51,267 nucleotides of DNA from a virus, in the IMG/VR virus record IMGVR_UViG_3300043436_005154, positions 1 through 51,267 of that record; one strand, given 5' to 3'. Positions 5,489-40,950 of this stretch are shown one piece after another. The notes under the pieces were generated by a model. It saw only the letters and a list, made by a program, of their open reading frames with translations, searched no databases and was not told where the DNA came from. A program made the position numbers and the translations under genes. Positions within the stretch are counted from its first letter, which is position 1, and each line of letters begins with the position of its first letter.

Positions 5489-5563
5489 CGCGAGGTAGAC
5501 TGGAGATGGTACCAGCTTGGTCTCATAAGCCAAACAACGTAGGTTCGAATCCTACCCTCGCAA
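5489..5563 (+). tRNA. tRNA-Met (CAU), initiator-like
   Basis: A cloverleaf can be folded by hand. The acceptor is 5489-5495 with 5556-5562. The D arm is CTGG/CCAG (5500-5503 with 5512-5515). The anticodon arm is 5517-5521 with 5529-5533, with loop CTCATAA and anticodon CAT at 5524-5526. The T arm is GTAGG/CCTAC with loop TTCGAAT. The first acceptor pair is C1-A72, unpaired, which is the hallmark of bacterial initiator tRNA-fMet. However, only two of the three G-C pairs typical of the initiator anticodon stem are present (the third is T-G). Four nucleotides rather than two separate acceptor and D stem. CCA is not encoded. Confidence 0.75.
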
Positions 5564-5693
5564 CAAAGCGCCAGCAGGCCACTGGATCGTAGTTCCTCTC
5601 ACGCTACCCATAAGAACAGCGCCCCAGGAGAGCTAGATCGTAAGCTAGATGGGTTTGGCAACTTCCCCACTGACGAGAGAATAAGTTGCACAT
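5564..5693 (+). other. GC-rich structured spacer between two tRNA genes
   Basis: About 130 bp at roughly 53% GC in an otherwise AT-rich genome, with no reading frame of note. Visible helices are CTCTC (5596-5600) with GAGAG (5628-5632), enclosing CGCT (5602-5605) with AGCG (5618-5621), and a 7-bp hairpin GCAACTT (5658-5664) with AAGTTGC (5683-5689). The word GATCGTA occurs twice. No T arm is seen, so it is not a plain tRNA. It is probably part of a polycistronic RNA block or an unrecognised small RNA. Confidence 0.5.
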
Positions 5694-20621: not shown

Positions 20622-21203
20622 ATGGCTTACAAACATCAATTAAGTTTAGAAGTGCCAAATACGAATAATTGTACAATTTTTCGTGTGCAAGACACTAGTA
20701 TATATAGTGATAAAGTACCTATTACCTGTTATCAATTAGAAATTACATCTCCAGGGTTTAATGTACCAGCTGTAATTTTAATACCAAATCCTCCAGCAGT
20801 TGACGAACATTTTGATTTAGTTTTAAATGCATGTGATTTAAAAATTCAATCTGATGATTGCGATGAATTATCACAAGTATTACCAGATGGTGTATATTTT
20901 ATAAGATATTCTGTTAGTCCTAATGATCAAGTTTTTGTAGAATATAAACATTTAAGAGTTTGTCAAATTTTAAATAAATATTATAAAGAACTTTGTAAAT
21001 TAGAGCTTTCTGCATGTGAGCCTGAAGCTGATGTAAAAGAACAATTAAAAGAATTAAGATTTATTAAATCTTTTATAGACGCAGCAAAAGCAAAAGTAGA
21101 GTATTGTCATGATGTTAAAAAAGGCAACGAATTACTCGCATATGCAAATAAACGTTTGTCAAAATATATGAGTAATGACGGTTGTTGTCAAGATTGTCAT
21201 TAA
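20622..21203 (+). CDS. Fibre-cassette structural protein, N-terminal beta domain
   Basis: A 193-residue protein, first gene of the fibre cassette. Residues 1-115 are beta-rich (HQLSLEVPNTNNCTIFRVQD, PITCYQLEITSPGFNVPAVI, LPDGVYFIRYSVSPNDQVF). Residues 120-185 are helical and charged (NKYYKELCKLEL, VKEQLKELRFIKSFIDAAKA), ending Cys-rich (DGCCQDCH). It resembles small tail-associated proteins that precede fibre genes in phages of Bacteroidota. It could be an adaptor or a chaperone. The C-terminal Cys may pair or bind metal. Confidence 0.6.
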   Translation: MAYKHQLSLEVPNTNNCTIFRVQDTSIYSDKVPITCYQLEITSPGFNVPAVILIPNPPAVDEHFDLVLNACDLKIQSDDCDELSQVLPDGVYFIRYSVSPNDQVFVEYKHLRVCQILNKYYKELCKLELSACEPEADVKEQLKELRFIKSFIDAAKAKVEYCHDVKKGNELLAYANKRLSKYMSNDGCCQDCH

Positions 21204-21223
21204 TAAACCAAAAATAAACCAAT

Positions 21224-21403
21224 ATGAATTGCCAAAATTGTAACTCTCAAATTACATGTGGTTGCCAAATAAGATTTGCTTCTGATGGACAAAAAGTTTG
21301 TACAAATTGTATTAATTTTTACGAAAAAAGTTTATCAGAGTTAAAGAATGCTAATGATATAAACAATATTCAAGATACGCAAAATGACTTGCCAACAGAA
21401 TAA
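21224..21403 (+). CDS. Small zinc-ribbon-like protein (59 aa)
   Basis: A 59-codon frame starting MNCQNCNSQITCGCQIRFAS. Cysteines at residues 3, 6, 12, 14, 26 and 29 (CxxC, CGC, CTNC) could bind one or two zinc ions. The second half is acidic and Asn-rich. Its end overlaps the next gene by 20 bp. The family is unknown. Confidence 0.55.
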   Translation: MNCQNCNSQITCGCQIRFASDGQKVCTNCINFYEKSLSELKNANDINNIQDTQNDLPTE

Positions 21404-21581
21404 TAATGACTGTATAACAGATGATGAAAAGAAATATTTTGTAAAATTTGCTAATTCGTTTTATGATGAGTTTCGCAAATTAAAATATGGTATTAAATCA
21501 TGCCGTAAACAAAGCAAAATGTGGTTAGATGAAATGCGAAAAGATATAATTGAATACCAATTGAATAATGATAATAACTAA
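21384..21581 (+). CDS. Hypothetical helical protein (65 aa)
   Basis: A 65-residue protein starting MTCQQNNNDCITDDEKKYFV. It is followed by amphipathic helices (KFANSFYDEFRKLKYGI, CRKQSKMWLDEMRKDIIEY). A small accessory of the fibre genes is likely from position. No family was recognised. Confidence 0.55.
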   Translation: MTCQQNNNDCITDDEKKYFVKFANSFYDEFRKLKYGIKSCRKQSKMWLDEMRKDIIEYQLNNDNN

Positions 21582-21596
21582 TAAAATCATATTTTG

Positions 21597-23174
21597 ATGA
21601 AACCCTATAATTCAAATGAACATAAAGATAACTGTTCACCAATATCATCCAATTGTGTGATATGGCAAGGACCTAATTTAGAATGTATTAATCTTTGTAA
21701 AGGTGATAGTGTTTCTGATGTTGTTTATAAACTAGCTACAGAACTTTGCGATATAAAAGAAGCAATTAAATTAACAGATGTTGATTTTGATTGTCTTGTT
21801 AATGCATGTGACGATTTAATTATACCTGCTGACAAAAAACTTGAAAATGTTATACAGTTATTAACAAATGCTATATGTTGTGTTGGAGGCGTTGCGTACA
21901 GTACGTCAAGTAGTTTAGCTGAAGTGATTGATAGAGAATATACAGAACCTGTATTACCACTTCCACAATGTTTATGGTATATTGATCCTGCTACTGGAAT
22001 TTTAGTAACAAATTTGTTATTAAGTGATTATGTTGTTGTTGTTGCTAATAAGTTGTGTGCAATAAACGATCAAGTACAAATTCACCAAAGTCAAATCTTA
22101 GACTTGCAGGTAAGAGTAACTGATTTAGAAAATGAACCAGGTTATGTACCACCTCAAGTTACTCCTTTTTGTACATCAGGATTTGTAGTACAAGGTGTTC
22201 CTACTGAAATGGATGTTGTTTTAAGTAATTTAGATCAACAATTTTGTAATTTAGTAGGTATTCTTGGTGATACTACAAGTCTTGCATTGGCAGCTAGTTC
22301 TCAATGTAATTTATTAAATGCTCAAGATGCACTAAGTCAATCAGGTACAATGGCTTCAATTCCTGGTTGGAATATTTCAATATCGAATTTGGCACAGTCT
22401 ATGCAAAATCTGTGGCTTACTGTTTGCGATATAAGATCAGCTGTGTTTGATTTAAGAACATGTTGTTCTGTTGATTGTTCAGCTTTCTTTTTAGTTTATC
22501 AAGCAACAAGAAATGATCCTGGTAATTTAGTTACTTTAATCTTTAATTCAGGAACAGTTATACCAAGCGGTTTTACTAACTGTGCTACATTATCAACAGT
22601 ATCTATTACAGATGGTAATGGTCATACATATACAACTACTTTGGATTTAATTGTTGAATCTACAAATCCACTAGGCATTACATATGATGTAAGTAGTTCT
22701 TCTTTGAATCCAAATTTACCTTACACTGTAACTGTAAATGGATGTATTGAAAAAGATGGCAAAACCTGTAGTAAACAAGTTACACAAGTAATACAACCAT
22801 CTACAACCACTACTACTACTTCTACAACGAGCACAACTACTACAAGTAGTACAACTACATCATCAACATCAACTACTTCTACATCAACTACTACTACATG
22901 CGGACCGTGTTATAATTGGGGAGTTTCTCCAACAGCTAATGATTTAGCAGATGCAACAGGTAATAGTAATATTTTATTAAATGGTGTTGTTTTTGTAGAT
23001 ATTGTAAACTGTGGTGCTACATTACCTACAACAGTTCCTTTTAATACAGCTACATTAAATCAACCTGTTGGCTGTTCATGTAATATACCATTTGCATATT
23101 ATTTTAAAAATAATGTTCAAGTTCCTGCAGATTTAGGTTCATTGAGTATATTAAGTCTTTGCCCAACAACATAA
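21597..23174 (+). CDS. Fibre/appendage protein with docking module and Thr/Ser linker
   Basis: A 525-residue protein. Residues 12-55 hold a docking-type module (CVIWQGPNLECINLCKGD) that recurs in the products of 23186, 29777 and 30103. A long mixed helical and beta shaft follows, with several Cys and a coiled-coil-like segment (AINDQVQIHQSQILDLQVRV). Residues 300-398 form a beta-rich domain. A poly-Thr/Ser linker (nt 22798-22898) then leads to a C-terminal beta domain (nt 22900-23174) with Cys pairs. It is probably a tail appendage that anchors to the virion by its N-terminus and binds the host by the tip. ATG 21597 is preferred to the upstream TTG. Confidence 0.65.
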   Translation: MKPYNSNEHKDNCSPISSNCVIWQGPNLECINLCKGDSVSDVVYKLATELCDIKEAIKLTDVDFDCLVNACDDLIIPADKKLENVIQLLTNAICCVGGVAYSTSSSLAEVIDREYTEPVLPLPQCLWYIDPATGILVTNLLLSDYVVVVANKLCAINDQVQIHQSQILDLQVRVTDLENEPGYVPPQVTPFCTSGFVVQGVPTEMDVVLSNLDQQFCNLVGILGDTTSLALAASSQCNLLNAQDALSQSGTMASIPGWNISISNLAQSMQNLWLTVCDIRSAVFDLRTCCSVDCSAFFLVYQATRNDPGNLVTLIFNSGTVIPSGFTNCATLSTVSITDGNGHTYTTTLDLIVESTNPLGITYDVSSSSLNPNLPYTVTVNGCIEKDGKTCSKQVTQVIQPSTTTTTTSTTSTTTTSSTTTSSTSTTSTSTTTTCGPCYNWGVSPTANDLADATGNSNILLNGVVFVDIVNCGATLPTTVPFNTATLNQPVGCSCNIPFAYYFKNNVQVPADLGSLSILSLCPTT

Positions 23175-23185
23175 AATAAAAGACA

Positions 23186-23467
23186 ATGTCTTGTAATTGT
23201 AATCAAGCTGATCCAAATTGTGAACCTTGTTCACAATGCACCCCACCAGGTGTGCAATGTCTTCCTGATTGTAATCCAAAAGATCCATGTGAAGATGTTG
23301 TAGATTTGTGTTGTGTAAGATATTCTGGGGAAGATGAGAATTGTCATGATATTAAAAAGGGAGATTCTTTTTGTGACTTATTTTTTGATAAAATTTTTCC
23401 AAAAGCTTTTTCTAAACAAGATTGTTGTTTATTGCAAATATCAATTGATTTAGTATTTATTAATTAG
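23186..23467 (+). CDS. Small Cys-rich docking-module protein (93 aa)
   Basis: MSCNCNQADPNCEPCSQCTP opens a cysteine-rich N-terminus. It is followed by CCVRYSGEDENCHDIKKGDS, the same docking-type module seen in three neighbours, and a hydrophobic helix-like end. It has no Thr linker or tip domain, so it may be an adaptor connecting fibres to the virion, or a truncated fibre base. Confidence 0.6.
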   Translation: MSCNCNQADPNCEPCSQCTPPGVQCLPDCNPKDPCEDVVDLCCVRYSGEDENCHDIKKGDSFCDLFFDKIFPKAFSKQDCCLLQISIDLVFIN

Positions 23468-23473
23468 TAATTA

Positions 23474-24598
23474 ATGCCTAAAAATATAGTTTTAACACTA
23501 AATAACTCTGGACCTGATATAGGTCCTTATGGTATTATACTATATGATAGTTCTAATAATCCAACTGTATTACCTAATACAGTTACAAAAGCTCAATTAA
23601 CTGCTGGTTATTTTTTAACAGTTCCTGATCCAATTGTAAAAGTTACAGTTAAATCACAATCAAATAATGATTGTGATGAGGTTGAACTAACAATTCCTAC
23701 AACAAAATGTCCATGTAGAAACTTTACATTTACAAGTGGATCAACACCGTCTACCTTTACGTTTTATGAGTGTGGTAAGATTACACAATCATCTTTGTCA
23801 ATTCGTAATATTACTGTTACAAGATGTATAGATGCTACAAAACCTTTTTCAAAAGTAATAGGAACGGGTAGTTTTTTAGATACAAACAATTGTTGCGTCC
23901 CACCGTCAACAACAACTAGTAGTACAACAAGCACCACTAGCACCACTACATCTACCACAAGACTTCCAACTACGACTACCACAACAACAACATGTCAGCA
24001 ATGTTATAAAGTTAGAAATAATTCATCTAATTCACAAGCAATATCTTATGACAATTGCAGTGGTTTTACATTTACTGAAAATCTAAGCGGAAATACTACT
24101 TATTATTATTGTGCAAAAATAAATTCTATAGTTGTTAATACATTATTTGTATCAGTAACACCATTATCAACATCTTGCACTAGTAATGGATCATGTATAC
24201 CACCTACGACTACAACTACTACTACTACAATAAATCCATCACCATCTGCTAGAACAATAACTATACAGCCATTTAATGCTGACATGTCTATTGTAATAGA
24301 AGCTGGTAGAACAAGTGGTTCAACAAATCCTGATTTATTAACATTTACAGGTATTGTAAGAAGATATAGTGACACTAATTGTACTATTGTAAATAATCAG
24401 TATAATTTTAATTTAACACTTCCAGCAAATGCACTTTATAATTCTGCAAATCTCACAGCATGGAATCCTTCACCAAGAATGAAGATTGAAAGTTTAAGTG
24501 TTAATGGCAACGTAATTACACAAAATCCACAAAACATAACAGTTAATGGTAATGTATATACAATAGCAGGCTTTAATGTTTGTAAACAAATAAATTAA
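23474..24598 (+). CDS. Modular fibre protein, GP-type N-domain
   Basis: A 374-residue protein. The N-terminal 75 residues form a beta domain with the pattern GP-x-G-I-x-LYDSS ... LTAGYFLTVPDPIVKVTV, also found at the N-termini of the products of 24600, 25553 and 35556. Next come a CPCRNFTFTSGS module, a Thr/Ser linker (nt 23908-23990), a CQQCYKVRNNSS module, a second Thr linker (nt 24206-24232) and a C-terminal beta domain (SARTITIQPFNADMSIVIEA). It is probably a surface adhesin on the virion. Asn-Gly and Cys pairs are frequent. Receptor unknown. Confidence 0.65.
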   Translation: MPKNIVLTLNNSGPDIGPYGIILYDSSNNPTVLPNTVTKAQLTAGYFLTVPDPIVKVTVKSQSNNDCDEVELTIPTTKCPCRNFTFTSGSTPSTFTFYECGKITQSSLSIRNITVTRCIDATKPFSKVIGTGSFLDTNNCCVPPSTTTSSTTSTTSTTTSTTRLPTTTTTTTTCQQCYKVRNNSSNSQAISYDNCSGFTFTENLSGNTTYYYCAKINSIVVNTLFVSVTPLSTSCTSNGSCIPPTTTTTTTTINPSPSARTITIQPFNADMSIVIEAGRTSGSTNPDLLTFTGIVRRYSDTNCTIVNNQYNFNLTLPANALYNSANLTAWNPSPRMKIESLSVNGNVITQNPQNITVNGNVYTIAGFNVCKQIN

Positions 24599-24599
24599 A

Positions 24600-25544
24600 A
24601 TGATACAAATATTTGTAAAATTAAATACAGCAGATAGTGATACTGGTCCATTTATGGTTTATTCAAACGTAGATGGTTATATCACTGCTTATGGTATTAA
24701 TATTACAAAAGCAAATCTTACTAGTGGTGTTACGGTAACTGTTCCAGATTTTACAACAAGTGTAAAGATTAGATCAAATGGTAAATGTACAAATAGTATT
24801 ATTGTAAATATTGCTCCTGCAGGTTCAACTACCACAACTACTACTGTAAGACCATCTAGCACTACAACAAGTTCTACAACAACAAGTAGCACAACTACAA
24901 CAACTACAAGTGGTGGTGGGCAACCTGGGAGTACAACCACAAGTAGCACAACGACAAGTAGTACAACTACAACAACTACAAGCGGTGGTGGGCAACCTGG
25001 TAGCACAACGACAAGTTCTACAACAACAAGTAGTACCAGCACAAGTAGTACAACAACAAGTAGTACTAGCACAAGTTCTACAACTACAAGTACTACAATG
25101 CCTTCTGTTTTAGATTGCACTTGTCAAAAATCTGTATTTAATCCTCCTGATGGTCAATCTAGACAGGTAAGTTACTATCCTTGTGAAATAAATCCAAAAA
25201 CAGGTGTGTATTCTTTGGTAACTGAAACTATAGCGCCAGGTGCAGAAAGATGTATTAACATTAGTCCATCTGCGATAACTCTAGATGTATTTTTGTTTAC
25301 TCCAATATCAGGAAGTGGTTGTCCTACGTGTGGACCTACCCCAACATGTACTGATGTAAATGGTTGTAAAACATGGACTTTTTCAATTCCTATTGATAAT
25401 GTGGAAGGTATTACATATCGTAAATGCGATGGTACTTTAATAACAGTTTATTTGAGTGGTGTGTACTGTATTTGTGGAATACCTGTTAGTACATGTGTAG
25501 GTTGTATAGCTTTAAATGCACCAAATACAAATTGCAAATCTTAA
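24600..25544 (+). CDS. Modular fibre protein with duplicated Thr/Ser linker
   Basis: A 314-residue protein. The N-domain (residues 1-72; MIQIFVKLNTADSDTGPFMV, ending TVPDFTTSVKIRSNGKC) is paralogous to three neighbours. A long Thr/Ser linker follows (nt 24826-25098) and contains SGGGQPGS twice, in a 72-bp tandem unit. The C-terminal part has two Cys-rich beta modules (CTCQKSVFNPPDGQ, CKTWTFSIPIDNVEG) and a Cys-dense end. It is probably an adhesin arm with an extended, possibly glycosylated stalk. Confidence 0.65.
   Translation: MIQIFVKLNTADSDTGPFMVYSNVDGYITAYGINITKANLTSGVTVTVPDFTTSVKIRSNGKCTNSIIVNIAPAGSTTTTTTVRPSSTTTSSTTTSSTTTTTTSGGGQPGSTTTSSTTTSSTTTTTTSGGGQPGSTTTSSTTTSSTSTSSTTTSSTSTSSTTTSTTMPSVLDCTCQKSVFNPPDGQSRQVSYYPCEINPKTGVYSLVTETIAPGAERCINISPSAITLDVFLFTPISGSGCPTCGPTPTCTDVNGCKTWTFSIPIDNVEGITYRKCDGTLITVYLSGVYCICGIPVSTCVGCIALNAPNTNCKS
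24911..25002 (+). repeat. 72-bp tandem duplication in linker
   Basis: GGTGGTGGGCAACCTGG occurs at about 24912 and again 72 bp later, in nearly identical surroundings. The unit encodes 24 residues of Thr/Ser linker plus SGGGQPGS. It is a recent-looking DNA-level duplication, unlike most linkers here, which repeat at protein level only. Confidence 0.75.
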
Positions 25545-25552
25545 AATAAAAA

Positions 25553-28500
25553 ATGTCATTTTTAGTAAATATACAATTAAGCGTTTCTCCAGGTAGTGGA
25601 CCATTTGATATATATACAAATCAAGATGGTTTTGTTACACCTATTGCAACGAATATACCACTTAGTTCTTTTTTACCTTCTGGCTATAGTATTTTAGTAC
25701 CAGATGATACAACTATTGTTAAAATAGTACCTCAAGACACATGGAATGATATTTTATTTTTAGATGTAGTTTGTTCTTTACCTACAACCACTTCTACAAC
25801 ATCTACAACTACAACATCAACTAGTACATCAACAACTACGTCAACAACTACTTCGTCTACAACAACAACTTCGACAACTACTACAACAACAATTTGTCCT
25901 TTACCAAGTACTACCACTACATCTACCACTACATCAACAACAACAACAACGTCTACCACTACTACCACCACTGTTGATACATGTTTTGTTGTATTAAACT
26001 CAGGATCTCAAGTTTATCAATATAATGTTCTAACTAATACAAATCAATTATTAGATATAAACTTTGGTCCTAACTCACCTGATGTTGCTCACACAAGTAC
26101 GCGCCTGTGGTTAATAAATTTAGCAAGTCGTCAGTTTGTTGAATGGAGTATTACAATTAACCCATTTACTTCTTCTGGATCACCCACCACTTCTTATAAT
26201 TGGCCAGTTGGGTTTAACTCTTCTGATGGTTTATGGGCAATTGATAATAACACACTTCTTGTTGTAAATACAATAACATCTGTAGGTGGGTTTTCTAGTG
26301 TAGGTGAATATGATTTACCTACTAATACCTTTACATCATTATTTCAGTTAGATGTAAATGACCAAATATCTGGAGATTTTATACTTACATCAAATGGTAA
26401 GTTTATTGTAAGTGCTTTTGATATTGTCACAAATGATGTATTTGTATACCAATATGATTATGCGACAGGTACACTTGAAGAAACTATAAATGTAACATCT
26501 GCTTTAAGTTTTCCTTTTGCAATTTTTGAAGCAAACGCTAAGATTTATTTAGGTAATAAAGATGGTAAAGTTTATGAGTTTCAACATTTTCCACCTTATA
26601 GTGTAATTTTACCTGAAGTTGGCAATGTACCTTTTAGAATTGATGGAGGTTCTTCTCTTCCTGAGTGTACAAATACGTCATTAGGTACAACTACTACAAC
26701 CTCAACAACATCTACTACTACAACCAGTAGTACGACTACCACTACTACATTACCTCCTCCTTATTGTTATACAATAGATGCAGGTCCTAATGGTGGATAC
26801 TACACTTACACAGACAAAGATGGTAATGTATTTTATGGTGTATACATAGCTCCAAATAATCAACATGTTGTTTGTGCTATATCTGTTACAGCTATTGACG
26901 CATGCGGTCCAATAGTTATTACAGGACCTGGGGATTTGTGCGATGTAAATCCTTGTCCAACAACATCTACCACCACTACAACGTCAACTACATCTACATC
27001 TACCACTAGTTCCACTACAACATCAACTACAAGTACTAGTACATCTACTACAACAAGTACTAGTACAAGCACAACAAGTACAAGTAGCACTACGACCACT
27101 ACAACTAAACCTACTTTTACAACTACTACAAGTACGACAAGTACAACAACTAGTACAACATCTACGACTACTACATCTACAAGTACGTCAACAACATCTA
27201 CTACAAGCACTACGACAACGACTACTATTCCTTGTTATTGTTACACTGTAACAAGTGCAGGTCCTATTGGTTCTAGTACAGAAATATTCTGGGATGATTG
27301 CAATGGTGTTTCACAAAGTCAAACAATAAGTAGAACGTCTATTGCTCTTTGTGCTAAAAATGGTTTTATTGGTACACTAGATAATAATGGTGCCACATCT
27401 CAAATAATAGCGTCTCTTACAATTTGTGTAAATAATACATCTTGTAGTGTACCTACAACATCAACTACGTCTACGACTAGTACATCGACTACGACATCTA
27501 CATCGACTACATCAACTACAACAAGTAGTACTAGTACAACGAGTACAACAACAACTACTACTATTAATTTACCATGTAATTGTTTTACATTTACATCTTC
27601 TTCGCAATCTCCTCTTACTGTAACAGTAGTTGATTGTATTACATATTTAGACAAACAAGTATCTATTGTAAATGGATCTAGAGTTTGTGCTATATTATTT
27701 AGAACACCTCTTCCTGCAGGTGTAACTGCTGTTACAAATCAACTATGTGTAAATAGATTAGATTGTCCTCCTACTACTACAACAAGTACAACATCTACTA
27801 CATCCACAAGTACAACGACTACTACTACAATGAATCCTTTTGAAGAAGCATTGTGTTTTAATTTTGGACAAGAAGCTGTTGGTAGTGGTGGGGGCGGTAT
27901 ATTTGTAATTACATCTGTAAATGGAGCAGGTACATATTTAGGTAAACCCTATTATCAGTTTGCTAATGTTAGTAGTAATTATGCTGTTTTTTGGGATGGT
28001 GGTCAGTGGGTATTTACAAATGAATGGAATACAACTAAAATTGAAATTGCCATAAATATTTTAGATACTCCATATCCTGTCAGTGATATAACTGATTGGA
28101 GTCCTGCTTGTGATAGTAGTCCAGGTCAAGCTTCAAGTTTATACCTTTGTTCAGTTGATCTTGGGCCATGTGGCGACTATTGTACAACATGGGGAAGTGA
28201 AGCTTTTGGTAATGAATATTATACAGCTTTAGTTCAACCAACCCTTTATAATGGTAAACTTTGGTTTATTTTTGATGGACAAATACCTGGTCGCGGTTAT
28301 GTTATAATGTTCTATAATGGAACAAAATGGGTGGGTGTTAAATCCACAACACCATGGACAACAATACCACCTACATATAATTCTAGTGATTTGATATTTG
28401 AAACTGATCCAACTCCTTCAGGTGTTTTACCACCTCCAGATGGATCAACTTATACATATTTTACTGGTGGCTCAGCTTTTCGACTTGTTGAGTTTAATCT

Positions 28501-29758: not shown

Positions 29759-29776
29759 TGATAAAAATAACAAAAA

Positions 29777-30094
29777 ATGAGTTGTTCTTGTAATTGTAGT
29801 TGTGGATGTAGTGCTTCATGCGGTTGCTATGAAACTGTATGTCCTAGCTGTGTACCTAAGTGTCCAACAACTACGACTACAACGACTACTCTAAATCCTA
29901 ATTGTGAAGCATGTGGTGAATTTTTTAACTGTGAATGTATTAAGTATAATGGTCCAAACGTAGAATGTTATTATTTAAAAGATGGTGATACTTTATGTAC
30001 TATTTTAGAAAATGTAATTAAAAATTTACCAGATTGTAAAACAACACAACCTCCACTTAATTGTAACTTTACAGCCACTGTAACTTATAAATAA
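29777..30094 (+). CDS. Small Cys-rich docking-module protein with Thr linker (105 aa)
   Basis: MSCSCNCSCGCSASCGCYET is a remarkable cysteine-dense opening. A short Thr run follows (nt 29867-29891), then the docking-type module CECIKYNGPNVECYYLKDGD and a short beta end. It resembles the product of 23186 plus a linker. It probably serves as an adaptor between virion and fibre. The Cys cluster could bind metal or cross-link. Confidence 0.6.
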   Translation: MSCSCNCSCGCSASCGCYETVCPSCVPKCPTTTTTTTTLNPNCEACGEFFNCECIKYNGPNVECYYLKDGDTLCTILENVIKNLPDCKTTQPPLNCNFTATVTYK

Positions 30095-30102
30095 TTAATC
30101 AA

Positions 30103-33100: not shown

Positions 33101-34902
33101 CTACAACAACAACAACTAGTACATCAACTACGACTACTACAGAAGAACCAACTACAACTACAACTTCTACTAGTACTTCTACAACTACATCTACTAGTAC
33201 AACCTCTACCACAACAGAAGAGCCAACAACTACAACTTCTACTACAACTGAGGAACCTACAACTACGACAACTAGTAGCACTACAACTACAACCACTGAA
33301 GAGCCTACAACAACTAGTACAACTACAAGCACCACTACAACAAGTACTACTACAACTACTACCACTATTGATCCAGCTCTTCTTTGTGTAATCTGTGCAG
33401 AAAATGACGATCCTATTACAACTGAAGCTGATGAGAACATCAATCCTGAAGAATGTTGTAATTGCTTTACATTCTCTGCAGGAGCTGTTGGAGGTGATGT
33501 AACATACACTAACTGTTTTGGTCAAACAAACACAGTGACAGTTGCTCCTCTTACAGAGTTCACTGATTGTGTGGCAGTTGGTTATAGCGTTACACTTACA
33601 GGTGACTTAACACAATTTGCTTGTAATCAAACTTGTGTAGCGAGTGATCCGTTTTTTAATACTATACAGATAGAAAATCAGACATGGTCTGCACAAAACT
33701 TTGATGGAACAACCTTTAGAAATGGTGATCCTATTCCTGAAGTGCAAGATTTGGTAACGTGGAACTCTTTAACAACGCCTGCATGGTGTTATTATGCTAA
33801 TGATTCTGCAAATGGTCCTGTATATGGTAAATTGTACAACTGGTATGCTGTAACAGATCCTCGTGGAATAGCTCCTGATGGATGGAGAGTTCCTACAATA
33901 AGTGATACATTTAATTTAATAAATTATATAGGAGGACAGTCTGTTGCTGGAGGAGTTTTAAAACAAACAGGTACAACCCTTTGGAATTCTCCAAATGCTG
34001 GTGCTACAGATGCTTATGGATTTACTGCCCTACCTGGTGGTTACAGAGATCCTTCTTTAAACTTTACACAAAAAGGGTCAGAAGCTTTCTTCTGGATTGA
34101 TAGTCCAAATAGAGATACATTTAGACTATTTGCTAGTACTTCTGTTATTCTAGTTCAAAATATTGCAATTACTACTCTAGGTTTCTCAGTTAGATTTGTA
34201 TCTACACAAGGTGCTGAAACATGCATTTCTTGCGGTCCAACCACTACTACTACAAGTAGTACTACTACAACTACTACTTTAGAGCCGACTACAACCACTA
34301 CCACAGAGGAACCTACAACCACTACTACTAGTACTTCTACAAGTACAACCACAAGTACTACAACGGAAGAGCCTACTACTACAACTACTACTGAAGAACC
34401 GACTACTACTACGACTAGTACAACCAGTACTACTAGCACAACGACTACAACAACATTACCTCCTGGAACTTTATTTGTAACTAATAGTACATCAGCTGGT
34501 TCTAGCTTAGATAATATAACACCATCTTGGTATCTTATAACAGTAGGAAGCTTACCAGTAACAAATGGTCAAACAGCTGAGGGTGTTCATGGTGGGTATA
34601 CAGGATCAATAACTGTTAATATTGGAACAGCTGCTGCAACTTCTAAAATTAACATTAAGATTAACAGTGTAATTGTTGAGTGTATAGATGTTACAGGTGC
34701 TGGAAATTATACGTCAGGATCTTTGACAATCTTAAGTACTGATGCTGTTGAAATTGAATATGTTGATGGAACATGTGTAACACCTACAACCACTACCAGC
34801 ACTACCACAACGACTACAGTAGATCCTAGTAACTTTATATCAACAGAGCTTAATGAAGAAATTCAAGCTGAAAACAATGACTTTTTAATAACTGAACAAT
34901 AA
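30103..34902 (+). CDS. Giant modular fibre/adhesin with FISUMP domain
   Basis: A 1599-residue protein. The Cys-rich start (MSCNCSCTYHNLPCCC) is followed by the docking module CIIYNGNDYDCVGIEKGM and a Thr/Ser linker. Residues 121-253 resemble a PPC-like (pre-peptidase C-terminal) beta domain (YLGNDIWLKFIVPASGDVLV). Two 'YNNKPYY/YQNGRPKW' domains lie at about 319-538. Beta domains at 567-683 and 782-976 alternate with Thr linkers that include TTTEEP repeats. Residues 1182-1372 form a FISUMP domain (QTWSAQNFDG, LYNWYAVTDPRGIAPDGWRVP, AYGFTALPGGYRD, GFSVRFV). A beta domain and a short acidic tail end it. It is probably a multi-ligand adhesin. Confidence 0.7.
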   Translation: MSCNCSCTYHNLPCCCPQDGETFPCPTTICPNAQDCNVVIESECIIYNGNDYDCVGIEKGMRVDQVVDIILDKLNLKCTTTTTSTTTTSTTTTSSTTTSTSTSTTSTSSTTTTTTIPIGTGPCAAIPVPVECNCNYITFSTLSPGSSYSAPSCGNYLGNDIWLKFIVPASGDVLVSTKANQVTDGAISIYQGQNCNSLSETICIDDVPGSLMPYVHLTGQTPGETIYVRFWGYGGAVSGQVGLFDICVYEPPCTTPGSGDASACSTTTTSTTTTSTTTTTTTEDPCSNNGGEGTIITTTTTSTTTSTSTSTTTTTIAPQEICFTYGAEGFPIESSVITPEPTLYNNKPYYKVPLSYDPNNWYIWYSVDGDFPNQWVTSPLGQSSTLDVGSYLTSSSSSNYPIGVWTFGINFNSFFVAESSFLSTTPNPCNTPTLCLGLALGSDGGGQGPTNVSISGNTSYQNGRPKWTFDSGEPDFVNSSLYYNGTNWFYEHEDPAYSFTIPGSAGLLFPPEYVAPGNPVDCILSVPNALCSISYNSCPTTTTTSTTTTTSSTTSTTTTTTTICPECTIGVFDIINNDGDLINAITIDGSPLVLDGSATYPINGSIPVTSTNPSGVYTIAITLTSTGTGNVIGIATPDEECIQYNKCYLIQPGTNVYTFTNVNLDCLTFISSGFTPGAICDNIPTTTTSTTTSTSTTTTTTEEPTTTTTTSSSTTTTSSTTTTTTEQPTTTTTSSTTTTTTEDPNNICIICTELDEPITTENDDELRAEQCPIVTTTTTICPIVWETIGSSYQNNYISTASTGIIDITMSTTGPAGAGDGFDILNPSGVELVQCGAGVIASNYSGVTPTGNVYYIKGSLTGIVTMTFDFSSPITDPILGIWSLGNPTTQQLFKPDVPFIKLPGSGFDASVICGSANATDLTIGDSGVTFIGNSYTISGREGFGIVQFPGTHAQIRIQVYASEYRTNFVWGLTCATPGPVPTTTTSTTTTSSTTTTTTEEPTTTTTSTSTTTTTEEPTTTTTSTSTSTTTSTSTTSTTTEEPTTTTSTTTEEPTTTTTSSTTTTTTEEPTTTSTTTSTTTTSTTTTTTTIDPALLCVICAENDDPITTEADENINPEECCNCFTFSAGAVGGDVTYTNCFGQTNTVTVAPLTEFTDCVAVGYSVTLTGDLTQFACNQTCVASDPFFNTIQIENQTWSAQNFDGTTFRNGDPIPEVQDLVTWNSLTTPAWCYYANDSANGPVYGKLYNWYAVTDPRGIAPDGWRVPTISDTFNLINYIGGQSVAGGVLKQTGTTLWNSPNAGATDAYGFTALPGGYRDPSLNFTQKGSEAFFWIDSPNRDTFRLFASTSVILVQNIAITTLGFSVRFVSTQGAETCISCGPTTTTTSSTTTTTTLEPTTTTTTEEPTTTTTSTSTSTTTSTTTEEPTTTTTTEEPTTTTTSTTSTTSTTTTTTLPPGTLFVTNSTSAGSSLDNITPSWYLITVGSLPVTNGQTAEGVHGGYTGSITVNIGTAAATSKINIKINSVIVECIDVTGAGNYTSGSLTILSTDAVEIEYVDGTCVTPTTTTSTTTTTTVDPSNFISTELNEEIQAENNDFLITEQ
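33040..33368 (+). repeat. Thr/Ser tract with periodic TEEP breaks
   Basis: About 330 bp code poly-Thr/Ser broken every 12-20 residues by EEP (TTTEEPTTTT pattern, at least six times). The acidic-proline spacing is like mucin-type stalks. A related pattern lies at 32153-32332 and 34238-34462. Confidence 0.85.
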
Positions 34903-34904
34903 AC

Positions 34905-34931
34905 TATATTTGTTAAACTTTTAAATTTTAA
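34905..34931 (+). promoter_or_regulatory. Bacteroidota-type -7 box and leader element
   Basis: TATATTTG at 34905-34912 matches TAnnTTTG exactly. It is followed by TTAAATTTTAA at 34921-34931, 5 nt before the ATG at 34937. No clear -33 TTG is seen at the right distance. Confidence 0.45.
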
Positions 34932-34936
34932 AAACT

Positions 34937-35545
34937 ATGCCAAACGTAAAAATTTCTGCTCTTCCTGAATTTACTGGGAATACGCAGGACGCCTATCTTG
35001 TAATGAACGATAGCACACAGACAACCACCTATAAGGTGAAAAAAGAAAATCTCACTACACCTTCTGCTGGGTTTTCTTGGGTGAATGGTTCACCTGCCTA
35101 TTTTAACTTTACAAATGGTGTTGACACCTACATTCCATGGAACACACAGATTTTCAATACAAATACAAACGTATTTGAGCTTGTAAACTCTGGTTCAACA
35201 GCTGGAACAAGGGGTAATGAAGGTGCTCGTATTCATTTTAAACAACCTGGTATTTATGAAATCAGTTGTCAAATACATTGGTTTGATCTCACAGGGAATG
35301 TTGACTTTCTTATAAGAGTTAGTTCAGCTGCCACATCTGGTGGAACTATGTCAAGCTTTACACTTATACATGATTATAAATCTGCAGAAGCTAGTGGTAC
35401 AGATCAGTTGATGAATGGTACACTTATGTTAAATGTGACAGCTGCAGGATTCTATACACTTTGTGTTCAGCCAAGTGCAAATACACCATTTCCTTCAGAT
35501 TCTAACAACACCCCTAGCAGAATCTTTGTTAAGAAAATTTCTTAA
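34937..35545 (+). CDS. Tail fibre-like protein with jelly-roll C-terminus
   Basis: A 202-residue protein. The start MPNVKISALPEFTGNTQDAY, leading to TTTYKVKKENL, is the classic N-terminal attachment segment of phage tail fibres. Residues 70-200 are a beta jelly-roll resembling C1q/TNF-like domains (FKQPGIYEISCQIHWFDLTG, LMLNVTAAGFYTLCVQPSA, RIFVKKIS). Such domains trimerise and bind receptors or cap fibres. It has no Thr linker, unlike its neighbours, and its own promoter-like box suggests separate dosage. Confidence 0.75.
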   Translation: MPNVKISALPEFTGNTQDAYLVMNDSTQTTTYKVKKENLTTPSAGFSWVNGSPAYFNFTNGVDTYIPWNTQIFNTNTNVFELVNSGSTAGTRGNEGARIHFKQPGIYEISCQIHWFDLTGNVDFLIRVSSAATSGGTMSSFTLIHDYKSAEASGTDQLMNGTLMLNVTAAGFYTLCVQPSANTPFPSDSNNTPSRIFVKKIS

Positions 35546-35555
35546 ATAATAATAG

Positions 35556-37196
35556 ATGTTGGTATTTATACAAATTAATGGTCCACTTGGCTCAGGATAT
35601 GGGCCAAGTTTTACACTGTCAACAATACCTGCTGGTGTTATTACACCATCTACAGTTAGTACTGTTGATTTGTTAAATGGTATTATAGTAGATGTTTCTG
35701 ATGGAACAGTAGCTATATTGGCTACATCTACAAGTGATACTAGTTGTACTATTTTAATTACAATATCAACAACGTCTACAACAACGTCTACAACAACCAC
35801 TTCAACTACAACCACTACAACTACAGTACCTCCTGTAATATGTTTTGCATTTGAAGCAGAAGCTGTAAGTGGAACAGGAAATCTTTATTACGAAATAGCA
35901 TCTTCAGGAAATATTCTTCCTGTAAATGGTAAACCAGCATATGATTTTAGTGGTTTGTTTGGATATCCTGCTAGTATTTATTATATTGGAACTGAATGGG
36001 TTTATTATAATAGTGATTTAGGTGGAATAGTGCAAGTACTATCTTCTACAAATAATTATCCTATATCTGATGCTGTAACACTTCCTATTTGGACACCAAA
36101 TTGTAATGGTTGTGCTTTTTCTAAAGCTATTAATAAAAGTACTTTTGGTACTTGTCCTACAACCACTACCACAAGCACCACTACTACAAGTACAACTACT
36201 AGCACCAGTACTACAAGCACTTCAACGACATCTTCTACAAGTACTAGTACTACAAGCAGTACCACTAGTACAAGTTCAACTACAACAACTACAACACAGC
36301 AATCTTGTTGTTCCCCTGTAATTAATAGCCTTGTTATAACAGGACCACCTACAGGTTCTAGTTATCCTGTTCAAGTTAACTACACTGTTCCAACTAGTGG
36401 TTGTAATACATGTTTTTCAATGGAGTTTCGTATTGATACAACTGGAACAGGTACAAACTGGAATTCTTGGAGTAGTCTACCTGCAAACGCCTGTACACAA
36501 ACTTCATGGCAAATACCTTTCCAAATACCTAATGGAACTCTTGTACAATTAAGAATTATTAGTATTGGTGGTATTTGTCCTCCATCTCTACCTGTTGCTT
36601 TTTTACTACCAACAACAACAACTACTACTACAACTTTAATTCCACCTTGTATACCTGGAACTAACACATGCTCAATAGTGGTTACAAGCAACTCATGTTC
36701 TCAGTATGGATATCCATATCCTGTTGCAGTTGTATTAGTACCACCTTTTGGTGGTCAACCAGGGTGTAATCAAACAATAAATTACAGTATTACTGGGAAT
36801 AATTGTAAATGTGTTTCTGCAGTATTTTTAGATCATAGATGTGTAGGTTGTACAAGTTGGACTCAAGGTTCTCCTGTTGCATTTACTTCTAGTGGTTTTA
36901 TAAATATATGCAATCTCTTAAGTCTTTATGGTACATTACCTGCAGTAAATGGATTTGAGATAAGACTTAGAGTTTTATATACTGATTCATCTATTGCAAC
37001 ATCACCGATATATTCTGTATTACCAAAAGTAAAATATAGAAACATATCTGGAGTTAGTCAAATTATAAGTTATTGGTCAAATTATTGTACTGACTATGTG
37101 GCGAACGCGGTTATTTTTCCAAATGGTGAAATATGTAGTCATGGTGTATTAACAAGTTTCAATCCTTTAACTTGGCAGGCTATAAGTTATTGTTAA
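35556..37196 (+). CDS. Modular fibre protein, GP-type N-domain
   Basis: A 546-residue protein. Residues 1-70 are a divergent GP-type N-domain (GYGPSFTLSTIPAGVI, DVSDGTVAILATSTSDTSC). Thr/Ser linkers lie at nt 35765-35827, 36158-36297 and 36608-36636. A 'VNGKPAYDFSGLFGYPASIY' domain (about 92-202) matches those in the two giant fibres. Two FN3-like beta domains follow (PVINSLVITGPPTGSSYPVQ and a later paralogue), then a C-terminal domain with GEICSHG. It is the last fibre gene before the glycosyltransferases, probably an adhesin. Confidence 0.65.
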   Translation: MLVFIQINGPLGSGYGPSFTLSTIPAGVITPSTVSTVDLLNGIIVDVSDGTVAILATSTSDTSCTILITISTTSTTTSTTTTSTTTTTTTVPPVICFAFEAEAVSGTGNLYYEIASSGNILPVNGKPAYDFSGLFGYPASIYYIGTEWVYYNSDLGGIVQVLSSTNNYPISDAVTLPIWTPNCNGCAFSKAINKSTFGTCPTTTTTSTTTTSTTTSTSTTSTSTTSSTSTSTTSSTTSTSSTTTTTTQQSCCSPVINSLVITGPPTGSSYPVQVNYTVPTSGCNTCFSMEFRIDTTGTGTNWNSWSSLPANACTQTSWQIPFQIPNGTLVQLRIISIGGICPPSLPVAFLLPTTTTTTTTLIPPCIPGTNTCSIVVTSNSCSQYGYPYPVAVVLVPPFGGQPGCNQTINYSITGNNCKCVSAVFLDHRCVGCTSWTQGSPVAFTSSGFINICNLLSLYGTLPAVNGFEIRLRVLYTDSSIATSPIYSVLPKVKYRNISGVSQIISYWSNYCTDYVANAVIFPNGEICSHGVLTSFNPLTWQAISYC

Positions 37197-37219
37197 TATT
37201 GTTATAGTTATTATATTTG
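37190..37219 (+). promoter_or_regulatory. Bacteroidota-type promoter for glycosyltransferase operon
   Basis: TTG at 37190-37192 and TATATTTG at 37212-37219 are 19 bp apart, matching the TTG/TAnnTTTG promoter of Bacteroidota. It lies 26 bp before the first glycosyltransferase start and suggests that host-type RNA polymerase can read this operon. Confidence 0.6.
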
Positions 37220-37244
37220 TATAAATTTAAAAAAACCAACATTT

Positions 37245-38174
37245 ATGAAATTTTTATGTGTACAACCTGCTATTGAATATTATACGTGGCAGGTAGAAGT
37301 AATGATTAATAATTTTATTAGAAATGGTGTTGATCCAAAAGATATTCAAATTGTCTGTGGTCATCATGGCACTGTATCTGAAAATTGGTTAAAACTTGCA
37401 GAAAAATATACTGATACAAGGTTTTATTTTTATCCAGACAACAGGCAAAAGCCCTGTTATATATCCAGTATACGTCCCCATATTTTGCACAAGCATTGGT
37501 TGCAGCATCCTGAATTAGAAAATGAAACAATTTTCTATCATGACTGTGATATTGTATTTGCTAAACCCATTGATTTTGAAGGACTTATAGATAATGATAA
37601 CTGTTATGTAAGTGATACAGTAAGTTACATAGGTGCTAACTATGTACGTTCAAAAGGTGAACATTATCTTACTTATATGGCTGATATTGTTAATGTAAAT
37701 AAACAATACATTATAGAGCAAGAAGCAAACAGTGGAGGCGCTCAATATATTCTTAAAAACATTCCTACAGAGTTTTGGAAAAAAGTATACTACGATTCTG
37801 AAAATCTATTTAGATTAATTAATCATCAAATAGATGAAGATAGAAAAACAAATCCTAATATGCACGAAATTCAAATATGGTGTGCAGATATGTGGGCAGT
37901 TCTTTGGAATCTTTGGTTTTGGGATAAACAAGTATTAGTTACAGACAAACTTTCTTTTTCTTGGGCAACTTCACCAATTAGTGAATGGGACAGACATCCT
38001 ATATTTCACAATGCTGGTGTGACATCAGATAGAACAGATTTGTTTTATAAAGGTAAATATCAATTAGTATTACCTTATGATATTAAAATTGAAGATATAA
38101 ATACAAATCATTGTTCTTATAAGTATGCTGAAGAAATCTTAAAAACAAAGGAGGTGTCATGTCTAATAAAATAG
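37245..38174 (+). CDS. Glycosyltransferase-like protein (GT-A fold)
   Basis: A 309-residue protein. The N-terminus (MKFLCVQPAIEYYTWQVEVM) and a DxD-type motif FYHDCDIVFAKP (D100, D102) fit a nucleotide-sugar-binding GT-A fold, where the acids hold a metal ion and the sugar diphosphate. Later segments GGAQYILKNIPTEFW, WCADMWAVLWNLWF and FHNAGV look like acceptor-site elements. It would transfer a sugar to an unknown acceptor. It overlaps the GT6-like gene by 16 bp. Placement just after the Thr/Ser fibre cassette suggests virion or host-glycan modification. Confidence 0.7.
   Translation: MKFLCVQPAIEYYTWQVEVMINNFIRNGVDPKDIQIVCGHHGTVSENWLKLAEKYTDTRFYFYPDNRQKPCYISSIRPHILHKHWLQHPELENETIFYHDCDIVFAKPIDFEGLIDNDNCYVSDTVSYIGANYVRSKGEHYLTYMADIVNVNKQYIIEQEANSGGAQYILKNIPTEFWKKVYYDSENLFRLINHQIDEDRKTNPNMHEIQIWCADMWAVLWNLWFWDKQVLVTDKLSFSWATSPISEWDRHPIFHNAGVTSDRTDLFYKGKYQLVLPYDIKIEDINTNHCSYKYAEEILKTKEVSCLIK
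38147..38156 (+). promoter_or_regulatory. Unusual strong Shine-Dalgarno site
   Basis: AAAGGAGGTG lies just before the ATG at 38159, with a 4-nt gap from GGAGG. Almost no other gene here has such a site, and Bacteroidota rarely rely on them, so this may mark transferred DNA or compensate for the internal overlap. Confidence 0.6.
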
Positions 38175-38935
38175 GAATAGTAATTCTTGCTACTAATGCA
38201 TATTTTGTACTAGGTGTAAGATTTATTAAAAAGTTTATGCACCACTATAAAGGTGAGTCTGAAATAAAGTTTTACTTTTTTTCAGATGATGACCCTCAAC
38301 CTTATTTAGAAAATAATATAAATGTTGAGCACCATTTTACAGAACACAAATCTTGGGTAGATGGCACAAATGCTAAATTTCTTAGCATTCTTTCTCTTGC
38401 TAATTGTGATAGTGATTATCTCTATTATTTTGATGCTGACACAAATGTAAGTAAAAATTTTACAGCAGATTGGTTTTTAGGAGATCTTGTAGGAGGTGAG
38501 CATTATGGTAATAGAGGGTGGTTAGCAAATGGTGCAGGTTTTGATAGGTTTGAAAAATCAAAAGCTTATGTACCTGTAGATACACCTTTACCATGTACAT
38601 ATTACTATGGTGCTTTCTTTGGAGGAAAAAAAGAAAATGTAATTGATTTTTGTAAAACACTTAGAGAGTGGCAGTTAGAAGATAGAAAAATTCCATATGA
38701 ACCAGGAGTTAATGATGAAAGCTATATTAATGCATATTTTCATTATAATCCACCAGTAACGGTTCCTCTTGAAAAATTTGCATTTGACATAAGTGATAAA
38801 GGTGGCATTGGTGAAACTCGTAACATGCAGTTGGATATCTCTGCCTTAAAACAAAAAATGTTAGATAATAAAAGTAAAATTTATGACATTAGACAGGGAG
38901 ATCTCTTTATACATGACAACACATCAAACAGCTGA
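38159..38935 (+). CDS. Glycosyltransferase family 6 (ABO/alpha-Gal-like)
   Basis: A 258-residue protein with the GT6 layout. It starts NKIGIVILATNAYFVLGVRF, then has IKFYFFSDD, a DxD motif FDADTNV (D92-A-D94), GFDRFEKSKAYVP, and YYYGAFFGGKKENVIDFC. The acceptor/catalytic segment is NDESYINAYF, equivalent to HDESHLNKYF in ABO enzymes. GT6 enzymes add alpha-linked Gal or GalNAc with retention. As I recall, most bacterial GT6 have NxN in place of DxD, while vertebrate and a cyanophage enzyme keep DxD, as here. A strong Shine-Dalgarno precedes it. The acceptor is unknown. Confidence 0.85.
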   Translation: MSNKIGIVILATNAYFVLGVRFIKKFMHHYKGESEIKFYFFSDDDPQPYLENNINVEHHFTEHKSWVDGTNAKFLSILSLANCDSDYLYYFDADTNVSKNFTADWFLGDLVGGEHYGNRGWLANGAGFDRFEKSKAYVPVDTPLPCTYYYGAFFGGKKENVIDFCKTLREWQLEDRKIPYEPGVNDESYINAYFHYNPPVTVPLEKFAFDISDKGGIGETRNMQLDISALKQKMLDNKSKIYDIRQGDLFIHDNTSNS

Positions 38936-40226
38936 TACAGAAGATAATTTAAGTGTTAAGTATGAGAATCTATTTTCTATAAATGGTCAATTAACATATT
39001 TAACTATTGACGAAAATGCCAATCCACCTTATGTAAACAAATGGACAAATACATATTCTTGGCGACCAGTTGTAAAAATATTTAGTACAGAAGAAGATCT
39101 TATTAAATATGTAAAATCATTTTCTGATGTAGAAGAAATTGACTTAGCATTATTAGGTGATAATATATGGTATGGTAATGTTGGTCATGCTTTATTTGAT
39201 GGTTTTTATCCTGCTTATTTAGCTGCAGTTAAGTTTGGTTTTGAAAAGGAACCTTTTGTTTATTTAACTGATGATTGGAGTAATTCTAAAGTTATAGCAA
39301 ATGAGGGTATTGTGTTGTTTTCTGGTAATGCTGTAAGAAGTTACCAAAGACTGGATACGAATAAACTTATACATTTTAAAACTTTAATATCTGGAACTGG
39401 TAGAACAGGTAACAGAGTGATTAATGAAGAGTACAAGTTATATGGTTCAAGTTATAATGCATTAGAAAAGTTTAAATATAGAATGCTTGAATCTTGTGGG
39501 GCTGTTCCAGATAAACCAATAAATAGTTTTTTAAAAATTGTTATAATAAACAATAAAAGATATTCTTCTTTAGAAAGAGCTGCTATAGATAGAGTTATTG
39601 AAGATTATAAAATGTTTTATGATGTTGACATTACTTTTTTAGATTGGTGGCATCATCAATCTTTTAAAGAACAAATGCAAATTATTCAAGATGTTGATAT
39701 TCATATTACAGGACCAGGCACAGGTATGATGTACATGCCCTTTTTAAAGAAAGGTGCAGTAAATATTAATTTAGGTTATATGGAGCACACCCAGACAAAT
39801 GGTGCTAGACCTAATATTAAAATTCAAAATAGTACACAATCTGATCATATATTTCCAGGATGGATGGAGCAATCTGTATGTGCAGCTACCTCTTATGTCT
39901 CCACCTTGTATTATGATAGGTTTAAATATAACACAATACAAACTGGAGCTCTTATTAAACTTATAGATGATGCAATAGATATTGTGAGACAAGGTAAAAT
40001 TCTAGAAAATAAGCATAATATAGATGCTAGAGTTTTTATAGAATATTGTAAAAGAGTGTCTAATGCTAGACACCTTTGTGACTACTTAACAGGAATAGCA
40101 TTTTTTATTGAGTTGTTTGTACATGAACATCCCACAACTATTCCTGCGAACTTAGTTAATATAGATTTATTAAGACAAATTAAAGATGAACTAGGTATGG
40201 ACAGACAATATGAAATTAAACTATAA
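38913..40226 (+). CDS. Glycosyltransferase-like, GT61/DUF563 type
   Basis: A 437-residue protein from ATG 38913 (MTTHQTADTEDNL); an in-frame ATG at 38883 lies deeper in the GT6-like gene. WYGNVGHALFDGFYPAYLA resembles the family's 'N..H...D..P' segment. SFKEQMQIIQDVDIHITGPG, followed by GMMYMPFLKKGAVNINL, matches the family's 'e.q......vdv..gphGagl' signature. Such enzymes transfer xylose, GlcNAc or related sugars in surface glycans. It overlaps the GT6 end by 23 bp and is followed 3 bp later by a methyltransferase gene. Confidence 0.7.
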   Translation: MTTHQTADTEDNLSVKYENLFSINGQLTYLTIDENANPPYVNKWTNTYSWRPVVKIFSTEEDLIKYVKSFSDVEEIDLALLGDNIWYGNVGHALFDGFYPAYLAAVKFGFEKEPFVYLTDDWSNSKVIANEGIVLFSGNAVRSYQRLDTNKLIHFKTLISGTGRTGNRVINEEYKLYGSSYNALEKFKYRMLESCGAVPDKPINSFLKIVIINNKRYSSLERAAIDRVIEDYKMFYDVDITFLDWWHHQSFKEQMQIIQDVDIHITGPGTGMMYMPFLKKGAVNINLGYMEHTQTNGARPNIKIQNSTQSDHIFPGWMEQSVCAATSYVSTLYYDRFKYNTIQTGALIKLIDDAIDIVRQGKILENKHNIDARVFIEYCKRVSNARHLCDYLTGIAFFIELFVHEHPTTIPANLVNIDLLRQIKDELGMDRQYEIKL

Positions 40227-40229
40227 CAT

Positions 40230-40877
40230 ATGGAAAAGATTGTAAGAACAGGTATTGTAAATGGAATTGAATTAAAATTTGTTGATTTAAAATCATCAGG
40301 CACTGTTGATTGTGTTTTTACTGAATTGCAAAGAGACGACTATGGTTTAGAGCAAATTAGTTTATCTCCAGAAGATGTTGTTATTGATATTGGAGCAAAC
40401 ATAGGAATGTTTTCAATTTATGTAAAGAAAAAGTTTAATTGTAAAGTTATAGCATTTGAACCTGTACCGTTAAACTTTGAACACTTTAAAGAAAATATTA
40501 AGTTGAATGGTTTAGAATTAAATGATTTTGAATTACATAACACAGCTATCACAGAAGAAGAAGATGGCGTTATAGAAATTGGTACTCCTGAATACAATAC
40601 AGGAGGATCTTCTATTTTTCACAAATGTGATATTATATCTAAATGCCCGACTGAAAGATTGCATAAGTATATTACTGAAAATGCAGCCTATTTAAAAATT
40701 GATACAGAAGGAGGAGAGTACAAGATTATACCTGATATATCAGATAGTCTTAATTATTTTTCGTATATTGGCATTGAGTACCACAGATTTAATTCTTCAC
40801 AAAGTCCTTTAGAATTACACAATCTATTAAAATCAAAATTTAAAGGAAAAATATTTTGTCAAGAACCCAAGATATAA
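40230..40877 (+). CDS. FkbM-family SAM-dependent methyltransferase
   Basis: A 215-residue protein. VIDIGANIGMFSIYVKKK (51-68) is the SAM-binding motif I, VIAFEPVPLNFEHFKENI is motif II, and YLKIDTEGGEYKII is the 'D-x-E-G-x-E' FkbM signature. FkbM enzymes O-methylate sugars and other hydroxyls. It closes a four-gene sugar-modification operon and probably caps or alters the glycan made by its neighbours. A strong terminator follows. Confidence 0.88.
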   Translation: MEKIVRTGIVNGIELKFVDLKSSGTVDCVFTELQRDDYGLEQISLSPEDVVIDIGANIGMFSIYVKKKFNCKVIAFEPVPLNFEHFKENIKLNGLELNDFELHNTAITEEEDGVIEIGTPEYNTGGSSIFHKCDIISKCPTERLHKYITENAAYLKIDTEGGEYKIIPDISDSLNYFSYIGIEYHRFNSSQSPLELHNLLKSKFKGKIFCQEPKI

Positions 40878-40880
40878 AAA

Positions 40881-40950
40881 GTCAGGTTTTGTTGGTTTCA
40901 TCCTGACAAAAAAGCCCTGGCGTTTCTACGTTGGGGCTATATTTTTTTAT
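40881..40950 (+). terminator. Double hairpin terminator of sugar-modification operon
   Basis: The first hairpin is GTCAGG (40881-40886) with CCTGAC (40902-40907). The second is an 11-bp stem with G-T wobbles, 40913-40923 with 40928-40938, with a TTCT loop, followed by a seven-T run at 40942-40948. The second is a good intrinsic terminator. Confidence 0.85.

Follow-up and report, generated by a model that had tools for sequence, protein, structure and literature searches.

Glycosylation of virion proteins by phage enzymes has been described in mycobacteriophages, whose capsid and tail-tube subunits reportedly carry the glycans at their C-termini (Freeman et al. 2023, as summarized in PMC12619734 and PMC10955285). 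Here we analyzed a virus record of 51,267 nucleotides (IMG/VR record IMGVR_UViG_3300043436_005154, positions 1 to 51,267), the whole of which is referred to as the window. It contains a block of fibre-like genes rich in Thr/Ser tracts (20622-37196), followed by a four-gene sugar operon that starts with a gene we call GTA (37245-38174, plus strand), a member of the protein family phrog_4417. The cassette is likely a system for virion self-glycosylation, as a preliminary description of the window had suggested, and the phage is probably crAss-like. The suggestion gains support from the genomic surveys, in which phrog_4417 was found almost exclusively beside virion proteins with Thr/Ser tracts, including those of unrelated siphophages and myophages.

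The mycobacteriophage glycan sites, as these sources give them, match the positions of the Thr tails in phages that carry phrog_4417. The enzyme family is different, since the tblastn searches found a phrog_4417 relative in 72-74 records, none of them from a mycobacteriophage, and the main likely substrate in crAss-like phages would be the internal tracts of fibre stalks. A second likeness is to eukaryotic mucins. The window encodes dense Thr/Ser stalks between globular domains with TTTEEP and TTTKPTTT spacing, the former, a spacing noted earlier, being present in the 30103-34902 protein. The window tracts, however, are proline-poor, no known mucin enzyme is found in the window, and the Mucin profile PF01456 scored 16.7 bits against the window, below its gathering score of 34.7. 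If glycosylated, the tracts would work like mucin. In Bacteroidota, a general periplasmic O-glycosylation system attaches O-linked sugars to the Ser or Thr of a D-S/T motif. The product proposed here would likewise be a Ser/Thr O-linked sugar. Host periplasmic O-glycosylation is nonetheless an unlikely source of it, because no signal peptide was evident in the proteins by hydropathy, which revealed no membrane segments either, and the motif D(S/T)(A/I/L/V/M/T) was absent from the window tracts.

Thr/Ser tracts and the predicted GTA enzyme

A tract was defined as an uninterrupted run of pure Thr/Ser of at least 8 residues. The window has 35 such runs distributed over seven open reading frames (ORFs) at 21594-37196, with 737 residues in total and a longest run of 49; the window's other reading frames have none. 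The preliminary description had counted about twenty linkers in seven fibre proteins. The observation is confirmed, but the linkers were underestimated and the first ORF it had named (20622-21203) carries no tract. Inside the runs Thr is encoded by ACA (245), ACT (222), ACC (54) and ACG (39), and AGY and TCN codons are used as well. Because synonymous codons are mixed, the amino acid sequence rather than a DNA microsatellite looks maintained, and a DNA-repeat origin of the tracts was rejected.

GTA aligned with 292 of the 293 positions of the phrog_4417 profile (259 bits), and ten diverse relatives matched it as well. The family carries the function label "unknown". No sequence match to GTA was obtained in Pfam, NCBIfam or the PDB, the last searched with the single sequence and with a profile. 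A Pfam scan of 39 GTA members gave weak and inconsistent matches only, such as Stealth_CR2. The AlphaFold model of GTA, built from 39 relatives, had a pLDDT of 97 and a GT-A fold, for which the best PDB matches in Foldseek were UGGT, GT8 and GT6 enzymes (E down to 1.5e-7). The two Asp residues of the DxD motif, D100 and D102, are invariant across the 39 sequences. Based on the predicted fold and this motif, GTA is a GT-A-fold glycosyltransferase. The model shares fold and motif with the GT8 and GT24 enzymes glycogenin, LgtC and UGGT, whereas their sequences do not match GTA and the TM scores are about 0.4-0.5. Comparison with its nearest relative gave a dN of 0.098 and a dS of 0.726; GTA is under purifying selection relative to this sequence.

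The following scheme would account for the cassette. The fibre genes would supply globular domains linked by mucin-like Thr/Ser tracts. GTA, as a soluble enzyme, would use a nucleotide-sugar donor to place the first sugar on the hydroxyls of tract Thr and Ser residues in the cytoplasm, the site of virion protein synthesis and assembly. The GT6 enzyme of the operon, perhaps together with its GT61-like neighbour, would lengthen the sugar, and the FkbM enzyme would then methylate it, resulting in a particle with stiff stalks covered in sugar. Any benefit from this, by rigidity, shielding or adhesion, is guesswork. As judged from the sequence comparisons below, phrog_4417 is probably a widespread class of phage protein O-glycosyltransferase for poly-Thr/Ser, in which short Thr tails or tracts would act as a portable glycosylation tag, gained and lost along with the enzyme by capsid, tail and fibre proteins of unrelated phages, and the partner enzymes would set a phage-specific sugar.

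Pairing of GTA with Thr/Ser tracts in other phages

Relatives of the window were gathered through a conserved tail protein of 1651 aa and not through GTA, and four relatives found by GTA that have the same ring protein were added. Proteins with Thr/Ser tracts occurred in all 13 crAss-like records with GTA. Twelve of these had 5 to 53 matches to a six-Thr DNA pattern, confined to one strand per record; the thirteenth had no such match, yet it contained four Thr/Ser runs. In the absence of GTA, six-Thr matches were sporadic (1 to 4 each, in 6 of 37 whole records), and a run of at least 8 residues was seen in one of 36 loci, as a single run of 11 residues. The association between GTA and tracts in the crAss-like loci gave a Fisher p of 5e-11, with counts that are not fully independent across these relatives. 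Fibre proteins that share an N-terminal Cys module had tracts in 20 of 33 cases with GTA and in 1 of 86 without it. In close relatives without GTA, the exonuclease gene directly adjoins the fibre genes with no enzyme in between. When the presence of GTA was placed on the ring-protein tree, five changes were needed, and well-supported branches make three or more of them unavoidable. These changes and the tract counts point to joint gain or loss of GTA and the tracts on more than one occasion.

GTA relatives with 26-39% identity are encoded by phages that infect Enterococcus, Lactobacillus, Lactococcus, Staphylococcus, Arcanobacterium and Chryseobacterium, and those tested against the profile belonged to phrog_4417. 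We inspected 21 GTA-bearing loci from phages of Bacillota, Arcanobacterium and Chryseobacterium. The phrog_4417 gene in these isolate phages usually adjoins a capsid or tail gene, and Thr-rich stretches are located on virion or neighbouring proteins, mostly as C-terminal tails of capsid or tail proteins, e.g. TTTTTTKPTTTTTTTQA. The stretches in three of the 21 loci were short or interrupted, fell under the automatic threshold and were judged by eye (R3.3, 9183 with ATTTDPVTTTSTTRQ, and ENFP1 with TTVAPTTVAP repeats). In the GTA-less relatives Javan47, Javan505, Javan249, phiJL-1, Bassarid and ATCC8014, the orthologous major tail or capsid protein has no Thr tail, the ATCC8014 orthologue having TKTTTP only. 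A pair from the same genus illustrates the difference: the capsid protein of R3.3, which has GTA, ends in ...TTTTTTKAPTTTTTSSHA, whereas that of Bassarid, which lacks it, ends in ...IFTASPKA. Capsid and tail proteins alike carry Thr tails within phiFL1A, R9.1 and R3.3. The tailed partner varies among the Bacillota phages, being a capsid protein, a tail tube protein or a small protein, and the short Thr tail is the sole common element. Lactobacillus phage LP65 served as a check outside the 21-locus sample. Its orf49, located first by fold search, is 22% identical to GTA in sequence, and the two proteins directly upstream have Thr-rich tails, one of them annotated as structural by two-dimensional gel and mass spectrometry. 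A second gene, annotated as EPS sugar transferase-like, is found near the phrog_4417 relative of LP65 (L325, 9049-10062).

A search by GTA similarity alone located 80 loci, and 57 were left once near-copies had been removed. A tract was present upstream on the same strand in 51 of the 56 non-redundant loci having at least 500 bp of upstream sequence, with a median distance of 383 bp from GTA to the nearest upstream tract. Forty of the loci had 3 kb of sequence to either side of GTA; a tract was present upstream in 36 of them and downstream in 2. The density of runs per 100 kb was 150 upstream of GTA and 8 downstream, as compared with 0.4 in crAss-like loci without GTA. Two apparent exceptions, L010 (other strand) and L054 (TTTTTVAP), encode Thr-rich proteins that the strict count had missed. 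A scan of genome contigs for GTA relatives returned five loci, two of which have Thr-rich genes directly upstream. As a tool for the reverse search, the poly-Thr DNA pattern was rejected, most of its matches being without GTA and seemingly unrelated.

Partner enzymes and alternative explanations

The partner enzymes were identified with unequal certainty. The product of 38159-38935 (plus strand) belongs to GT6, the family of the ABO transferase, BoGT6a and a homologue in phage P-SSM2, with 48.2 bits against PF03414 (gathering score 25). It has relatives in phages. It differs from bacterial BoGT6a in having DAD, a DxD motif, where the latter aligns with NAN, and it is the proposed elongating enzyme. 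The fourth gene (40230-40877, plus strand) encodes an FkbM-family methyltransferase, as previously assigned, with 89 bits against TIGR01444 (cut-off 37.7) and a PF05050 score that is above cut-off too; it would carry out the sugar O-methylation. Between them, the product of 38883-40226 (plus strand) is weakly GT61-like and is proposed as a glycosyltransferase. It scored 15.6 bits against PF04577, under the gathering score of 27, and a relative of it 17.5 bits. No match to it was found in the PDB or in phages, and one viral scan returned no relative. Three glycosyltransferase-like genes had been named in the preliminary description; the assignment holds for GT6 by its Pfam match and for GTA by its GT-A model, while the third stays below the cut-off.

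In 13 relatives, the slot between GTA and the exonuclease gene is occupied by GT2, GT7C, GT11, GT34, Fringe-like, FkbM and other methyltransferase genes in varying combinations. Even in the nearest relative, whose ring protein is 94% identical, a GT2 and a GT2-FkbM fusion replace the GT6, GT61-like and FkbM genes of the window. As GTA is constant and its partners are variable, the arrangement resembles a pathway whose first step is fixed and whose later steps can be exchanged. Tract proteins were missing from the same setting in GT6 loci that have no GTA beside them, and the pairing is thus not shared by phage glycosyltransferases in general. The survey of operon and tracts for which the preliminary description had called supported self-glycosylation in a sharper form: the tie to tracts was found for GTA and was absent for GT6 and the other partners. 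One gene, GTA, is likely the tract enzyme, and the others would be accessories. At the GT6 loci L162 and L172, a distant GTA relative (29-34%) lies on the opposite strand several kb off, and Thr/Ser runs are few or none. The exonuclease gene that bounds the slot distally in relatives is DNA-repair-like (phrog_704) and is located at 40995-42212 in the window, within the tail gene region.

Several results weigh against virion self-glycosylation. A few GTA loci have no nearby tract (L011, L025, L034 and L296), and the GTA-tract pairing could partly reflect joint movement of fibre and enzyme genes. GTA was present in just 11 of 119 loci chosen by a nine-Thr DNA pattern, as counted in the stretch examined; tracts therefore do not require GTA. 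The fold matches of GTA are at the superfamily level only (TM about 0.4-0.5), and the AlphaFold model of the GT61-like protein, made from two sequences, had a pLDDT of 30 and gave no usable fold.

Serotype-changing phage glycosyltransferases are well known (PMC10955285), and the operon might in the same way remodel host surface glycans, for example excluding other phages, with the adjacency to fibre genes due to chance or shared late expression. The lack of a fixed tie between tracts and GT6 or other partners fits this explanation. We consider it unlikely, given that phages infecting several bacterial phyla have GTA after virion genes with Thr tracts, that orthologous proteins have no tails where GTA is absent, and that no membrane-anchored enzyme or flippase was found in the operon by hydropathy. 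It is also rather improbable that the tracts are plain flexible linkers while the enzymes act on phage DNA or some other molecule of the phage. This would leave unexplained why tract gain and loss track GTA and why phiFL1A, R9.1 and R3.3 have tails on both capsid and tail proteins, even though poly-Thr tracts occur without GTA too and DNA modification by phage glycosyltransferases does occur (PMC12619734). The poorest candidate is a fibre-plus-enzyme module spreading as a unit with its parts biochemically unlinked, which agrees with the adjacency of the genes and the whole presence or whole absence of the module in crAss-like relatives but hardly with the Bacillota phages, where the partner protein changes each time and just the short Thr tail is shared.

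Virion self-glycosylation would provide a testable function for phrog_4417, a family that occurs in phages of Enterococcus, Lactobacillus, Lactococcus and Staphylococcus and in many environmental crAss-like viruses. A Thr-rich tail or tract together with phrog_4417 would serve as a simple predictor of sugar-bearing phage particles, and sugar coats could alter how phages are recognized by hosts, receptors and animal immune systems. Cultured phages with a phrog_4417 gene exist, so the question is open to bench work. The pairing of phrog_4417 with a poly-Thr substrate appears undescribed in the open-access literature searched, in which neither phrog_4417 nor poly-Thr tails of phages were the subject of any paper found, although an earlier description is possible.

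Fibre genes, operon signals and setting in the window

The seven tract ORFs are all on the plus strand. The first (21594-23174, 526 aa) has the N-terminal Cys module and one tract of 33 residues (about 22800-22898). It is followed by fibre-like proteins of 374 aa with three tracts (23474-24598), 314 aa with three tracts of 69 residues in all (24600-25544) and 1401 aa with seven tracts of 219 residues (25553-29758), whose N-terminal domains are mutually related. A short protein with the Cys module and a run of 8 Thr (29777-30094) precedes the largest member (30103-34902, 1599 aa), which has 17 tracts of 300 residues. The last fibre-like protein ahead of the sugar operon (35556-37196, 546 aa) has three. 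Apart from the related N-terminal domains and a few short matches, the segments between tracts are mostly without mutual similarity. A Fib_succ_major (FISUMP) domain is located at aa 1188-1366 of the 30103-34902 protein. The Cys module, 40-65 aa with the pattern CIxYxGPxxxCxxLxxGD, is present at the N-termini of the 21594-23174, 23186-23467, 29777-30094 and 30103-34902 proteins and also in fibres of relatives without GTA; it is possibly a fibre attachment domain.

The four operon genes overlap or are closely spaced and start 48 bp after the final fibre gene. The preliminary description had given the operon its own promoter and terminator. The terminator is a good one, an intrinsic structure with an 11-bp stem and a T tail (given as 40913-40938 or 40913-40948, plus strand). 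A promoter was rejected, as neither pattern exceeded chance in the window: sigma-70 promoter-like sites numbered 30 versus 36 in shuffles, and the Bacteroidota-type pattern TTG-N19-TATATTTG, of which the candidate at 37190-37219 (plus strand) is an example without statistical support, occurred 3 times on the plus strand with about 5 expected.

The window is probably a fragment of a crAss-like phage, because terminase, portal and capsid genes were matched at 6-14 kb via PHROGs and the tail genes at 42-50 kb gave matches, albeit weak, to crAss-like ring and tail proteins. The ring protein scored 26.9 bits against the CrAss_Ring_1 profile, just under the cut-off of 27, and the tail protein is 26-28% identical to those of csAssE-Sib and Cellulophaga phi17:2. 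The fibre-like block lies between these two regions. A tRNA-Met gene (anticodon CAT, 5489-5564) stands immediately ahead of the terminase gene. At the other end, the terminal ORF (49763-51265) extends past the end of the record and has TTTTTLPP close to its end.

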